Shown in pieces: positions 13,057-33,646 of a stretch of DNA of 36,560 nucleotides. This stretch comes from a virus. A program made the translations under genes and the position numbers. Each line of letters begins with the position of its first letter. Positions within the stretch are counted from its first letter, which is position 1. The notes under the pieces are model-generated. The model saw only the letters and a program-made list of their open reading frames with translations. It did not search any database and was not told the DNA's origin. The stretch spans positions 1-36,560 of the IMG/VR virus record IMGVR_UViG_3300046048_001028; one strand, written 5' to 3'.

Positions 13057-13099
13057 ATTGTTCTTCGTTAAATCGTTCTGCCAATAACTACACGCCCTC

Positions 13100-15467: not shown

Positions 15468-15760
15468 TGGACAAACCAAAGCCGTTACTCGATTTACTGG
15501 AAGAACTCGAACGGGAGCCGCCCGAAGGCCAGCCCTGGCGGGGCGGTCGGGCCACGCTGCTTTTGGACGGCCACGCCGTCCGTTTGACGGCCAGGGAATG
15601 CTGGCTCCTTTTTCAGACCATCGAATCGGTCGAGGATATGAACAATACCCTGGACGCCGCGAGCGTTCGTTTAGAGATTCCCCGACACCTGCCCATTGAC
15701 GATGATGTCCTCGATTACCTGCGCGAAATCATGGACGTGGCCGTGGAGGAGGCTAGTTAA
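15467..15760 (+). CDS. Small acidic protein, 97 aa
   Basis: A 97-residue protein starting MDKPKPLLDLLEELERE. It has a helical N terminus, a beta hairpin (GRATLLLDGHAVRLTARE), two more helices and an acidic end (DDDVLDYLREIMDVAVEE). I do not recognise it; the size and charge would fit a small baseplate or hub assembly factor. The upstream in-frame start at 15374 overlaps the divergent gene and is not needed. It lies 3 bases before the hub gene, with GGAGGAGG near its end serving as a strong Shine-Dalgarno site for that gene. Confidence 0.6.
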   Translation: MDKPKPLLDLLEELEREPPEGQPWRGGRATLLLDGHAVRLTARECWLLFQTIESVEDMNNTLDAASVRLEIPRHLPIDDDVLDYLREIMDVAVEEAS

Positions 15761-15763: not shown

Positions 15764-17080
15764 GTGAGCGAAATTGTAGCCAGCGGCGACGGGCAAGCGG
15801 TGGTCGAGTACCAATTGCTGGTGCGCGAAAGCCTGCCCTACTTCATCAAGGAGGGCATCCTCAACCACATCAGCAGTGTCCTGGCCGACTTCGTGGACCG
15901 GCCCGCGCAGTACGAGCACAAGTTCCGCATCCAAAGCCCGGATTTCGTGGACAAGGTGCTCCGCCAGGCCAACTCCAAACTGCTGCCCAAGCTGCGGTTT
16001 CGGTTTGGCATTGGCACGCCCGGCAATGCCCGCTTTCAGACCTGGCAGGACCACTACATCACCGGCTATTCAGCCTCCGTCGAGGGCGTGGCGGAGAGCA
16101 GCGGCCATTTCGTCTCGATCCATACCTCTGACGCGCTTTACGTGTTGCGGGAAACCCAAACCAAAACCGTGGCCCGCCGGGGCCGCATCAGCGATATTGT
16201 GGCCCAGATCGCCAGTGAAAATGGCATCCAGGACACGGTGATCGAGCAGACCGGCGATAACCGCTACCTGCTGATCCAGAGCTTTTTGTCGGACGAGGAG
16301 TTCATCCGCCAGCGGTGCGTCCCACGCGCCGTCAATGCCAAAGGTCGCGGGAATTACTGCTTCTACATCCGGGACAACGTGCTCCATTTCCACTCGGCGG
16401 ATTACGAGTCCACGGTCAAGGAACTGAACTTTTTCCGGCCCGAAAACATGAGCCTGGTGGAGCACGACCGCAGCCATGAACTATTTGGCCAGGGCGCATC
16501 GGGCCTCCGCATCGTCCAGTACAACCCGCTCACGGGCCTGTCGCGGGAAGTGGTCAACGATCCTGAGAAATCGCTGCGCTACTCGAACATGCTCTACCCG
16601 ATCTCGACGCTGACCAACAGCCATCTGATTATGCACCACACGGTCGGGGCCAACCCGCCGGACGAGGCGGTCGCCCTGGCGCAGAACTTCTATGACCAGG
16701 CGCGCAATCAGATTTTTCGGACCAACCTGGAAGGGGTAAAGATCGTGATTGCCGCCGGGGACCTCCTCAAACTCAACGTCGAATCCAAGCTTTCCAGCGC
16801 CTCAAGCTGGAGCGGCTACTACTGGGTCGTGGCCTCGACGCACACCATCGTCAAACAGGCGATCACGTCCGAATACATCCTCCAGCGGGGCGAATCCACC
16901 AACTATCTGGGCGACCAGGTGTACGTCAGCGACCCGGAGGGCCAGCTTACCAGTGAGACCGAAGCGCCCGGCCAGGACCTGAACGTGGCCGATGCGGTCA
17001 GTTCTCCGCTGACGAAAGGTGCGGGCGCGGCCACGGGAGGCGCGCGGTTCATCACCTTGAAGGACCCGAAGACAGGCTAA
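15764..17080 (+). CDS. Baseplate hub protein (gp27/gpD-like)
   Basis: A 438-residue hub protein with the arrangement of late-control gpD/VgrG N-terminal parts. Residues about 95-215 contain HYITGYSASVEGVAESSG, VLRETQTKTVARRGRISDIVAQIASENG, then YLLIQSFLSDEEFIRQRC, and FYIRDNVLHFHSADY: two tandem tube-like domains framing a short helical one. Such proteins form the trimer that joins the tube to the spike (6286-7305). The last 50 residues are low in structure (Ser, Ala, Gly-rich). It shares a 4-base CTAA with the convergent gene, where its TAA interlocks with the other TAG. Confidence 0.75.
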   Translation: MSEIVASGDGQAVVEYQLLVRESLPYFIKEGILNHISSVLADFVDRPAQYEHKFRIQSPDFVDKVLRQANSKLLPKLRFRFGIGTPGNARFQTWQDHYITGYSASVEGVAESSGHFVSIHTSDALYVLRETQTKTVARRGRISDIVAQIASENGIQDTVIEQTGDNRYLLIQSFLSDEEFIRQRCVPRAVNAKGRGNYCFYIRDNVLHFHSADYESTVKELNFFRPENMSLVEHDRSHELFGQGASGLRIVQYNPLTGLSREVVNDPEKSLRYSNMLYPISTLTNSHLIMHHTVGANPPDEAVALAQNFYDQARNQIFRTNLEGVKIVIAAGDLLKLNVESKLSSASSWSGYYWVVASTHTIVKQAITSEYILQRGESTNYLGDQVYVSDPEGQLTSETEAPGQDLNVADAVSSPLTKGAGAATGGARFITLKDPKTG

Positions 17081-21756: not shown

Positions 21757-22142
21757 GGTTGGGTAAGGGGCGGGGGCAATTTGCCGCCGGGGCCGCTGGC
21801 GTAAAACCCCGCGACGATCCGGGCGGCGGCTTCGGGCATGAGATTGATGTCGGCCATCATGTCCAGGACGAAGGACATGCAGCGGAAGGCTAGGACCACG
21901 GCCCAGGTGCCCAAAACCACGCAGGAGGCAAAAAGGGAAATCAAAGTCCAGCGCAGGTCCTGGTCCGCCTGGAGGCTGTGGTACACAAAAAATCCGACGG
22001 CGGTCAGAAAGAGCAAAATGAAGATCACGTCAATGAACTGGAAGAAACCCATTTTCAGCAGAGCCTGCGTCCGGGTCATCGGAATTTGGTTTTCGGGAAA
22101 CTGGAGGCGGGCCGGAGCCGCCGCTGGGGGATTGCCATTCAT
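21753..22142 (-). CDS. Two-helix membrane protein
   Basis: A 129-residue protein with two strong hydrophobic helices at about 33-55 (FFQFIDVIFILLFLTAVGFF) and 65-88 (TLISLFASCVVLGTWAVVLA). Both termini are polar. Such a layout is seen in small membrane proteins and some holins, but there is no endolysin beside it, so I do not call it a holin. A later start (MTRTQALL) is possible. It overlaps both neighbours by ATGA. Confidence 0.6.
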   Translation of the reverse strand: MNGNPPAAAPARLQFPENQIPMTRTQALLKMGFFQFIDVIFILLFLTAVGFFVYHSLQADQDLRWTLISLFASCVVLGTWAVVLAFRCMSFVLDMMADINLMPEAAARIVAGFYASGPGGKLPPPLTQP

Positions 22143-23548
22143 AGCGAGTTTTTCAGGTGGACGTTAATGAGGCGGATCAGTTCGTTGGCGCTTAGACCTG
22201 GGGGCACTTCCCAGCGCCGGTTGACGCACATCAGGCGTTTTTGCAGGGAAGGCTTGGGATTGCAAAAAACCAGCCGGTTGGTCGGGCCGGTGCGCAGCCC
22301 AAAGAGGAGCTTTTTGTTGCCGCTGGGATGGAAGAAAATCTGGCCTCGGTGCCGGGTCTGATTCAGGTGGTCCTTGACGTATTGAATGGCCTCAAGCTCC
22401 GCGTCCGATCCCGACGCGCAGGCTCCCACGGCCAGGACCGGCACCCGGACGCCTTTTGCTCCCAGCAGCTTCGGGTCAATCTTCATCTTGTCCAGGCCAT
22501 AGTTGGCCGCGACGGTTCGGCAGTTGACCCGGTAATCGCACGAATTGCATTCCCGGCGGTTGTCCTGGAACAGCACCCCAAAGCACGCCATGACGCCGCC
22601 CTGCATTTTGGGCACGAGCGCGCCGCAGATGTGCAATAACTCGGCGACCTGCGCGTTGACTTTCGCGTGCTGGATGCGCGCCGCGATAGTGAGCATCCGC
22701 TTGATGATGCTCTGGTCCGTGTTGGGAGGAATCTGCAACCCAAACAGGCTGCAAAGGGCCGACAGCGCCATTTTCCTCTTGCTCTCCTCGTCCCGTTCTT
22801 GATCGTTCATATCGCGGTAATTTCGTATTTTTGTCTGGACCATCGCCACTACCTCCCGATAGAACTCCAAGTGCTTTTCCGTCCCTTTGAATCCCAAGCC
22901 CTCCGAGAGATGACGCTCGCGAATTCTAATCTCGACGGATCGCAGCAGACGCCGGCCCACGCTCGAATCCAATTCGGCGCGCAGGCAAGCATCCAGGTTC
23001 GGACAGACCATCTGGTCAAAAACCAGCCGTTCCAGTGGCGTTAAAATTGCGCGGTATTCCTCCTCGACCTGCCTCGTTTCCTCGTGATCGGCCTCGTAGC
23101 TGTCGGGAATTTGGAGCGGACAATCGTCATTGTCCATTGACCGCTCGACCGTTTTCATGCCGGTCTCTTGCCGCTCCTTGTTCGATAAGCCGGTGCGCCG
23201 GTGGGTGCCTCGATTCTTCTGGATGAGGCTGTAAACCAGGTTGCGGTAGGACCGCTGGAAAAGACCGAAAAAGCGGGCGCGGGTGCCGGCCTTCTGCAAG
23301 TAGCCTTTTTCGATCAAGTAGGAAAGCTTGGCCCGTCCGTAGCTGACCAGTTCCTCCAGATGCAGGTCCATGCAGGAGTCGTCCACGTAACTTCGGGCAA
23401 TGGCAACCATGACGCGCTCCAGGTCGGGCATCATCTCCTCGATCACCGGAGGCCGGATTTTCGGGTCAGGAAACAGCAGGCAGAACCGAGCCGTCAGCTT
23501 GACCTCGGTCACCAAGAATTCTGGATCAAGGATTTGGCTCGTTATCAT
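22139..23548 (-). CDS. Sigma-factor-like protein with a C-terminal four-cysteine (Fe-S-like) motif
   Basis: A 469-residue protein. Residues 61-112 resemble sigma region 2: LHLEELVSYGRAKLSYLIEK followed by TRARFFGLFQRSYRNLVYSL, where the second half mirrors the 'F-ty----irn-i' helix that binds the -10 element. Residues 169-182 (LTPLERLVFDQM) recall the start of region 4. The second half carries C322, C334, C337 and C343 (C-x11-CxxC-x5-C; CNSCDYRVNC), a spacing like Fe-S clusters in Cas4/AddB and EndoIII-type proteins. A zinc site is the main alternative. The start at 23548 is chosen because the longer frame (to 23683) overlaps the upstream gene with poor composition. It overlaps that second sigma-like gene by 23 bases. 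Confidence 0.6.
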   Translation of the reverse strand: MITSQILDPEFLVTEVKLTARFCLLFPDPKIRPPVIEEMMPDLERVMVAIARSYVDDSCMDLHLEELVSYGRAKLSYLIEKGYLQKAGTRARFFGLFQRSYRNLVYSLIQKNRGTHRRTGLSNKERQETGMKTVERSMDNDDCPLQIPDSYEADHEETRQVEEEYRAILTPLERLVFDQMVCPNLDACLRAELDSSVGRRLLRSVEIRIRERHLSEGLGFKGTEKHLEFYREVVAMVQTKIRNYRDMNDQERDEESKRKMALSALCSLFGLQIPPNTDQSIIKRMLTIAARIQHAKVNAQVAELLHICGALVPKMQGGVMACFGVLFQDNRRECNSCDYRVNCRTVAANYGLDKMKIDPKLLGAKGVRVPVLAVGACASGSDAELEAIQYVKDHLNQTRHRGQIFFHPSGNKKLLFGLRTGPTNRLVFCNPKPSLQKRLMCVNRRWEVPPGLSANELIRLINVHLKNSL

Positions 23549-24569
23549 GGTCGTAAAGTTCGTGCTCGCCGGAACGGTTTGGATCGAGGACATCCACCAT
23601 GTCGTTATAGACTTCGGTTGCCGTTCGCTGGTTGCGGCGGTATTTGCGTGCGATGGCCGTGACCGAATCCGGGTCCTGGTCACTGCTCTGGATTTCCCGG
23701 TACATTTGGTAGTTGCGCTTCAACTCCGCCAGACTGGCCAGGCTGGGAATCTTCATGCGCGTCCCGCCGTACACGGCGATAAGCTTTTTGGTGTTTTCGT
23801 AGCCGATCAGATCAATTAGGTCGGGCAGGATGGTGTAAGCATAGGCCGCCCGCAAGAGGTCCTGCTCGGTAAAGGGAAAGTAGGCCAGGTCATAGAAGGC
23901 GTTCCGCAACGCCTGCAAGGCCCAGTTGTAGAAGAATTTCGTGTGGTCCTCGGCGATGCCAAAAGCGTAGGATGCGGAGCGGATGGCCGCCTGCCGGTTG
24001 TGGTCATCGGCCACAATGCAGTCAATCAGGAACCGCAGCGCGCCGATTTCCTGCGGATCACCCCACCGGCAGGTGATGCCCCGCAGTCTGGACCGAGCCT
24101 CCGCCGCCGCGTCATGCTTGTTGACGGCGTGGTCCTCGACTCCGTGAAACTTCTCCAGGTCGTCACCCGTGACATGAAATTTCTTCCGGTATTGGCTGAC
24201 CTTGCTCAGTTCACTGCGAAAGGCGTTTTTGGCGCATTTGGAAAACCAGGAAAACAGCCGGCCTTTCTTGGGCGACCAGCGCAGCAGCCATTTGACGACC
24301 TTTTCCTGGGCGGCGGCAACCAGGATGGGCAGGTCCACCATGTAGTGAAATTCCTCGTACTGGGCGAGCCGCTCGAACATGGCCGTGGACCCTTCAATGA
24401 TCTGGCCCAGGACATCCATCGCCTCCTTGTGGCGCTTGGCGGCGTTAAGCTGCTTCCACTTGACCGCCAGCGGCGTCAGTTGCGCGCTGGGAAAAATGTG
24501 CTCGCCCGGCGGTGTCGTTGGTGCGGCGACGGGCTTTGCATTCGACTTTTTGCCTCGGCGGGGCGTCAT
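23526..24569 (-). CDS. Late sigma factor-like protein (gp55-like) with Mor-like C-terminal domain
   Basis: A 347-residue protein. Residues about 80-130 resemble sigma region 2 of T4 gp55-type late sigma factors (LLRWSPKKGRLFSWFSKCAK, then NAFRSELSK). Residues about 250-330 resemble the Mor transcription activator family: LIDLIGYENTKKLIAVYGG, TRMKIPSLASLAELKRN, then IARKYRRNQRTATEVYNDM with a helix-turn-helix. T4 gp55 is only 185 residues and lacks such a domain. I infer a phage sigma factor that carries its own DNA-binding module. It follows 24575-25189 by 5 bases and overlaps the second sigma-like gene. Confidence 0.65.
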   Translation of the reverse strand: MTPRRGKKSNAKPVAAPTTPPGEHIFPSAQLTPLAVKWKQLNAAKRHKEAMDVLGQIIEGSTAMFERLAQYEEFHYMVDLPILVAAAQEKVVKWLLRWSPKKGRLFSWFSKCAKNAFRSELSKVSQYRKKFHVTGDDLEKFHGVEDHAVNKHDAAAEARSRLRGITCRWGDPQEIGALRFLIDCIVADDHNRQAAIRSASYAFGIAEDHTKFFYNWALQALRNAFYDLAYFPFTEQDLLRAAYAYTILPDLIDLIGYENTKKLIAVYGGTRMKIPSLASLAELKRNYQMYREIQSSDQDPDSVTAIARKYRRNQRTATEVYNDMVDVLDPNRSGEHELYDHDNEPNP

Positions 24570-32866: not shown

Positions 32867-33636
32867 CAGTCAACGGTAAGCGGCGCGGACCTCTGCATCG
32901 CCTTGAGTTCGGCTTCAAGCCGGTTCATTTCGTCGGTCCACATCCGGCGGCGCTCCTGGTCGAGTTGCAGATTCTGAACCGGCCCCGGAATGGCCCCGGA
33001 GAACTTCATCCATTGCTGGCCTAGCAGCATGTTGGCCTTGGCCACGCTGTAACGCTTAACCCATTGGCTCCCCACCGAATCGAGCGCACGCGGATCGGTC
33101 ACGTCGAAATAGCAGATGACGCCGCACATATACCGCTCAATGGGGTTGTGGATGTAGAGGCAGGAGTCCACGTCGTCGTACATCCAGTTCGGCTGAACCG
33201 AAGTCACACGCATCCAAGTTTTTCGCCAACGTAGGAATGTGTCGTACTCGTCCAGGCCCAGCCGGAAAATCGGGGCGGGATTGATGAGGTTGCCGTAGAA
33301 AATCTCGGTCGGCACCGGGTTCGGCTCGACAAAGGAAACTTCGGCAATGCCCTGGCCCACGTCCACGCCTTCCAGATAGCGGAACTGACCTTGGACCAGA
33401 ATGATGGACTGGGCACGGCGCAGGGGCACCCAGATGGACCAGAGCGTCAGAGCATCGTTGATCGTGTCAAGAATCTGCTGGCGGGAAAGCTCAACGTTCC
33501 AGGTTGGCGCACCCAACTGGCGCTCCACGTAATCGGCAAGCTGCTCAAGCCCGACGCCCTTATTGGCCAGGGAATCCGGGCTGGTGACCGGGACTGGGGT
33601 CGCCGAGTTCGAGGTTATGGGCATTGATGTGCTCAC
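32866..33636 (-). CDS. Neck protein (gp13-like)
   Basis: A 256-residue protein. Residues 30-66 (LADYVERQLGAPTWNVELSR, then QQILDTINDALTLW) match the start of T4 gp13-type neck proteins ('ilrrLGaPiinVElt--qi-d-i--Al-ly'). The C-terminal half has the aromatic and helical features of that family (RYSVAKANMLLGQQWMKFSG). Gp13 joins the head to the gp14 and tail complex. It sits apart from the gp14-like gene (14906-15457). It starts at GTG just after TAGTTAAGGC, 24 bases past the upstream stop. Confidence 0.7.
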   Translation of the reverse strand: MSTSMPITSNSATPVPVTSPDSLANKGVGLEQLADYVERQLGAPTWNVELSRQQILDTINDALTLWSIWVPLRRAQSIILVQGQFRYLEGVDVGQGIAEVSFVEPNPVPTEIFYGNLINPAPIFRLGLDEYDTFLRWRKTWMRVTSVQPNWMYDDVDSCLYIHNPIERYMCGVICYFDVTDPRALDSVGSQWVKRYSVAKANMLLGQQWMKFSGAIPGPVQNLQLDQERRRMWTDEMNRLEAELKAMQRSAPLTVD

Positions 33637-33646
33637 GCCTTAACTA
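33637..33646 (-). promoter_or_regulatory. TAGTTAAGGC start-site motif
   Basis: TAGTTAAGGC abuts the GTG at 33636 in the 24-base gap between genes, so it is noncoding here. Confidence 0.4.

Follow-up and report, generated by a model that had tools for sequence, protein, structure and literature searches.

The window, i.e., the whole 36,560 nt stretch of DNA that was analyzed, carries on its minus strand a gene for a 347 aa protein, P0001, in which a sigma region 2 (sigma2) domain of the phage T4 gp55 type is joined to a DNA-binding domain of the Mor family. The most likely domain order is a gp55-like sigma2, a sigma4-like helix-turn-helix (HTH) and the Mor-family domain. The favored interpretation, with a probability of roughly 0.6, is that P0001 is a phage sigma factor of the late type that carries a fused Mor module and acts with a partner on the host RNA polymerase. 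The fusion, with an adjoining second sigma-like gene, suggests a new viral way to redirect host RNA polymerase.

The fusion gene and its locus

The window, a 36.6 kb fragment from IMG/VR, derives from a myovirus that encodes a RecA/UvsX-like recombinase, a DnaB-type helicase and a tail sheath; all of these are very distant from their counterparts in cultured phages. The P0001 gene is in a minus-strand run together with the UvsX gene and an SSB-like gene (the latter recognized by inspection). It is followed by the gene for P0002 (22139–23548, about 469 codons), with which it overlaps by 23 nt. The plus strand across the fusion gene has an antisense frame only. The features of P0001 are:

23526–24569, minus strand: sigma-Mor fusion gene P0001, ATG at 24569, stop at 23526, 347 aa
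24171–24500, minus strand: sigma region 2 domain, gp55-like, residues 24–133 (phrog_234, model, hhalign)
24219–24257, minus strand: LFSWFSKCAKNAF, residues 105–117, counterpart of the gp55 promoter pocket in the alignment; loci L025 and L026 carry inteins here
23880–24074, minus strand: middle helix-turn-helix, probably sigma4-like, residues 166–230; model helices 172–186, 192–203 and 207–224
23589–23837, minus strand: predicted Mor-family DNA-binding domain, residues 245–327, with a GG-x-R-x-K-I-P linker (phrog_836, hhalign)

An earlier sequence-only reading of this DNA had the gene at the correct coordinates, 23526–24569, which lie on the minus strand, and proposed a sigma2 part at residues 80–130 and a Mor-like part at 250–330. 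Both domains are present there, but these ranges represent the cores only and the true domains are slightly longer (approximately 24–133 and 245–327). The two ends of the proposed architecture are thus correct, but the sigma4-like HTH between them (approximately 166–230) and the neighboring sigma-like gene were missed.

Relatives and distribution

The fusion is found in 24 IMG/VR contigs that range from 13 to 238 kb, several of which are near-identical. Single-protein searches of viral contigs with the fusion, UvsX and the partner gave no relatives; the tail sheath gave the first ones, and profile searches then yielded 18 and 20 viral loci; the partner gene as query gave 22. Single-protein tblastn of P0001 and P0002 against 50,697 phage records did not reveal a full-length relative, a scan of genome contigs did not find the fusion, and PDB sequences searched by profile were uninformative. 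The mean pairwise identity declines along the protein, from 67% in sigma2 to 51% in the HTH and 41% in the Mor part.

A protein of the cultured Maribacter phage Colly_1, Colly1_121 (337 aa, annotated as hypothetical), has a Mor domain at the same position as P0001 (hhalign E = 4e-9). Its N-terminal half appears sigma2-like by eye, with a profile comparison that is not significant (best E = 0.04–0.05). Colly1_121 is likely a distant relative of P0001 in a cultured phage. A published description of a sigma-Mor fusion was not found in the open-access literature.

The sigma region 2 domain

Sequence profiles assign the N-terminal part of P0001 to the gp55 type. The Sigma70_r2 model applied to the single sequence gives a weak match at residues 88–123 (E = 0.3), and phrog_234, the gp55 late sigma family, matches 8 of 16 homologues with a best E of 4e-5 and the fusion gene of the window itself with E = 0.0011. 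When 11 contigs were searched over the whole record, every gp55-type match (8 of the 11) was inside the fusion gene. A domain-level hhalign comparison of the P0001 sigma2 with gp55 gives E = 7.8e-4, while crossed controls, with sigma2 and Mor swapped, give E = 0.44 and 0.36. The alignment with gp55 is collinear from the N-terminal motif through the end of sigma2.

The AlphaFold2 model of P0001 (16 sequences, pLDDT 76) has a pTM of 0.35, at which the relative placement of the domains is not reliable. It is all-helical and consists of a bundle at residues 28–133, an HTH at 172–224 and a Mor-like part at 235–327; a sigma2 helical bundle, the absence of which from a predicted structure would have spoken against the earlier proposal, is therefore present. 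All 50 structure matches listed by VIA are sigma factors and include gp55 and E. coli sigmaE. The comparison with gp55 in the open complex (7d7c_F) shows Z = 10.4 over 115 residues at 2.6 Å (residues 25–145). VIA cautions that, among helical bundles, values below about 13 may be commonplace, and P0001 has Z values of 10–11. The PDB matches listed by Foldseek are sigma factors as well, none with E ≤ 0.001. Since single Z values are ambiguous, the assignment of a sigma2 fold is carried by the uniform list of sigma factors together with the sequence profiles.

In gp55, residues F86, H95, Y97 and T99 are required for promoter opening, and the acidic residues E70, D74 and E77 bind the clamp helices of the beta' subunit (PMC7892883). 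The four promoter-pocket residues correspond by hhalign to W98, F106, W108 and S110 in P0001. These are near-invariant in the family and are alike in type to those of gp55 (aromatic or hydroxyl) but not identical. Of the three acids, E77 alone has a counterpart (E89). The loss of the E70 and D74 counterparts could indicate that P0001 is a sigma mimic, i.e., a protein that blocks or remodels host RNA polymerase and is not an active sigma factor, and T4 gp33 is known to repress basal transcription (PMC2988020). This is nonetheless very unlikely, in that the best-conserved stretch of the P0001 family is the aromatic promoter-pocket motif, which a pure blocker would not need.

Two loci have inteins within the LFSWFSKCAKNAF pocket motif, at two slightly different insertion points (L025:2573–4714 and L026:1793–3907). 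Both inteins carry LAGLIDADG endonuclease domains (Pfam LAGLIDADG_2, approximately 2e-17; Intein_splicing, approximately 1e-6). Inteins usually occupy critical motifs of essential proteins, and this placement fits a core function of the motif. We know of no report of an intein in a sigma factor, as judged by a broad literature search.

A search of 11 records with PF02916 for a T4-type sliding clamp gave no match, in a search that had no positive phage control. One related contig, of 225 kb, has in addition a gene for a conventional sigma70 region 2 protein, well away from the fusion gene (G010:C1:200305–200514, minus strand; 46.8 bits, above the cut-off).

The Mor-family domain and the middle helix-turn-helix

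Residues 248–324 of P0001 match phrog_836, the Mor class of late transcriptional activators, with E = 2e-10, and 15 of 16 homologues do so as well. The match to Pfam Mor (PF08765, residues 247–320) has E = 8e-5 and, at 23.0 bits, is slightly under the Pfam cut-off of 24.9. In the whole-record search the top Mor match was inside the fusion gene in 10 of 11 contigs, and a domain-level hhalign comparison with Mu Mor, Mu C and relatives gives E = 1.7e-6. The two parts of P0001, compared separately by profile, thus match different families and not one unrelated fold. With the negative controls and the PDB matches of the model, almost all of them sigma factors, this upholds the proposal that a gp55-type sigma2 and a Mor-family domain are fused in one protein. 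In every relative that was read, the Mor part is joined to sigma2, and it was never present there as a free protein of approximately 130 aa. In Streptococcus phage vB_SagM-GXN1, an unannotated stretch (L031) has a free Mor-like ORF of 153 aa (1384–1845; hhalign E = 1.6e-6) directly after a 341 aa ORF at 228–1253.

The middle HTH is probably sigma4-like, based on the many sigma2 plus sigma4 structure alignments that extend through residue 232. Some structure alignments place the last HTH, that of the Mor part, on sigma4 and not the middle one.

These observations bear on a simpler explanation, in which P0001 is an ordinary sigma2-sigma4 factor whose last domain is a generic additional HTH, with the Mor match due to HTH resemblance and not to descent. 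It would account for the Pfam score just under the cut-off and for the weak matches that the Mor model gives in all 14 control genomes, and the alignment of the middle HTH to sigma4 agrees with it. The strength of the phrog_836 match in nearly all members argues against it, as does the extent of the match, which covers the linker ahead of the HTH where G269, R271 and P275 are invariant in the P0001 family. In addition, the last domain matches the Mor family, whereas the middle HTH does not (hhalign E = 0.14). The generic HTH is considered unlikely, and a true Mor-family domain is favored.

The partner protein P0002

The gene downstream of the fusion encodes a second protein with sigma2 and HTH regions:

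22139–23548, minus strand: P0002, second sigma2 plus HTH protein, 468–469 aa (adjacency, homology, structure)
23210–23467, minus strand: sigma2-like domain, residues 28–113
22799–23095, minus strand: sigma4-like HTH region, residues 152–250
22520–22585, minus strand: four invariant cysteines, possible metal site, C322, C334, C337 and C343
22142–22438, minus strand: C-terminal alpha/beta domain, residues 371–469; similar to YjbR (Z 7.0) and more weakly to the MotA double wing (Z 4.4–5.1)

The sigma2 of P0002 is distantly homologous to that of P0001 (profile comparison, E = 7.3e-5). The homology is visible with profiles only, as a direct BLASTP of P0001 against P0002 is not significant. The cysteines have the spacing C-x11-C-x2-C-x5-C, and 10 of 16 members match phrog_13400, a family of unknown function. 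The P0001 and P0002 genes are side by side in all 22 loci found with the partner query, where they mostly overlap or are a few bases apart. This strict pairing suggests that the two proteins act together, perhaps as physical partners.

A candidate late promoter element

The sequence TAGTTA, usually as GTAGTTA, is strongly overrepresented 10–15 nt upstream of start codons, with 8 cases in the window against 0.2 expected. Two related genomes have it at the same position (20 against 1.2 expected and 28 against 1.1 expected). The sites in the window are:

13085–13090, minus strand: TAGTTA element, 34 nt upstream of the start of the tail sheath gene
33641–33646, minus strand: TAGTTA element, 10 nt upstream of the head-tail adaptor gene, which has a GTG start at 33636
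15754–15759, plus strand: TAGTTA element, 10 nt upstream of a GTG start at 15764
1004, 13090, 14102, 14567, 15467, 19295, 20823 and 33646, minus strand, and 15754, plus strand: GTAGTTA motif sites, the three above included

In the window and in genomes G005 and G007, the genes that follow GTAGTTA are mostly virion genes, and the spacing to the start codon is often exactly 10 nt. Among the genes behind TAGTTA are those for a head-tail adaptor, a portal and a tail sheath, and also for a NUDIX/thymidylate kinase. The element upstream of the tail sheath is maintained in the window, in four sheath loci (two near-identical) and in G007, at a distance that varies from about 21 to 37 nt. This variation is more in keeping with a promoter than with a ribosome-binding site. 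GTAGTTA is the best candidate for a late promoter element, with an indirect link to P0001; it could also be an unusual translation signal. Late transcripts are possibly leaderless or have very short leaders, in a host with little Shine-Dalgarno use.

The conserved GE codons at the C-terminus of P0001 were considered as a Shine-Dalgarno sequence for the partner gene. This was dropped, as these genomes show no enrichment of GGAG ahead of starts. The palindrome TGTATACA is strongly enriched between genes in G005 and G007 (L042–L061), but as a common target it was also dropped because GTATAC is absent from the window.

GTAGTTA is absent from the 80 nt before all 12 fusion genes tested. Its occurrence ahead of virion genes and not of these genes counts in favor of the preferred interpretation. 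The 57 nt upstream of 56 GTAGTTA sites show no enriched k-mer or position and no conserved upstream element. T4 late promoters likewise have no upstream element (PMC2988020). The earlier suggestion that the Mor part would serve as a reader of upstream DNA is unsupported so far by these 56 sites, which are themselves candidate targets of P0001.

The lack of an upstream element for the Mor domain at these sites is also what would be expected if P0002, which has a sigma2 and an HTH of its own, were the protein that reads the late promoter, with the sigma-Mor protein serving another class such as middle genes or only assisting. The position of the gene pair within a run with UvsX and SSB-like genes would agree with this division of labor. 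However, the gp55 late sigma family is matched by the sigma2 of P0001 and not by that of P0002, and the gene pairing speaks for joint action. Such a role for P0002 is doubtful, and P0001 is preferred as the late-type factor.

Proposed mechanism

In the preferred interpretation, the sigma2 of P0001 would attach to the beta' clamp helices of host RNA polymerase and open a -10-like element in the DNA. The upstream face of the polymerase and the double-stranded DNA there would be held by the HTH together with the fused Mor domain. These two domains would stand in for gp33 and the sliding clamp in T4, or for the free activator dimer near -43 in Mu. P0001 would work with the co-encoded P0002, and the likely targets would be the virion genes behind GTAGTTA. 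Counting against this interpretation are the missing counterparts of gp55 E70 and D74, the Z values of 10–11, the lack of a Foldseek E ≤ 0.001 and the lack of an upstream element. A more elaborate and quite tentative version is a two-protein sigma system, with Mor fused on one subunit and a MotA-like double wing on the other, which together might replace the -35 element, the host sigma4 contacts and the sliding clamp.

If the interpretation is correct, a natural and conserved protein that unites a gp55-type sigma2 with the DNA-binding domain of an activator would represent an evolutionary step that lies between minimal sigma factors and complete ones. P0001 would be a single-chain system for testing how upstream DNA contacts substitute for -35 recognition. 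The analysis also provides a likely function for an unannotated gene pair in a group of uncultured phages, on contigs from 13 to 238 kb in length, and a candidate late promoter for them.

Comparison with known systems

Sigma factors and activators are normally separate proteins. In Bacillus phage SPO1, gp33 and gp34 form a two-protein late sigma encoded by two adjacent genes. This is a possible parallel to P0001 and P0002; SPO1 gp33/gp34 is not known to have a Mor domain. T4 gp33 and the laboratory gp55-gp33 fusions are similar to P0001 as split or fused sigma factors whose second part holds the beta flap and upstream DNA (PMC2988020). The likeness drawn here is one of idea, and gp33 has no DNA sequence recognition.

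The last domain of P0001 shares with phage Mu Mor and C (PF08765, phrog_836) the helices, the GG...P linker and the HTH of the Mor core. Mu Mor is a free 129 aa dimer; it acts alongside host sigma70 and, at -43.5, substitutes for the -35 contact (PMC4390567), whereas in P0001 the domain is fused to a sigma factor. Activators of the Mor/C family sit as dimers on a dyad element that lies upstream of the promoter.

The similarity to T4 gp55 (phrog_234) consists of sigma region 2 homology, the aromatic promoter pocket and candidate promoters with a -10-like element only, which here is GTAGTTA. The 185 aa gp55 carries a sliding-clamp motif at its C-terminus and lacks both HTH and Mor domains, while P0001 has two further domains. 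P0001 thus departs from the gp55 family in two features, its length and the acidic residues E70 and D74, but its profile matches and its fold make it most likely that it functions as a sigma factor of the gp55 type does.
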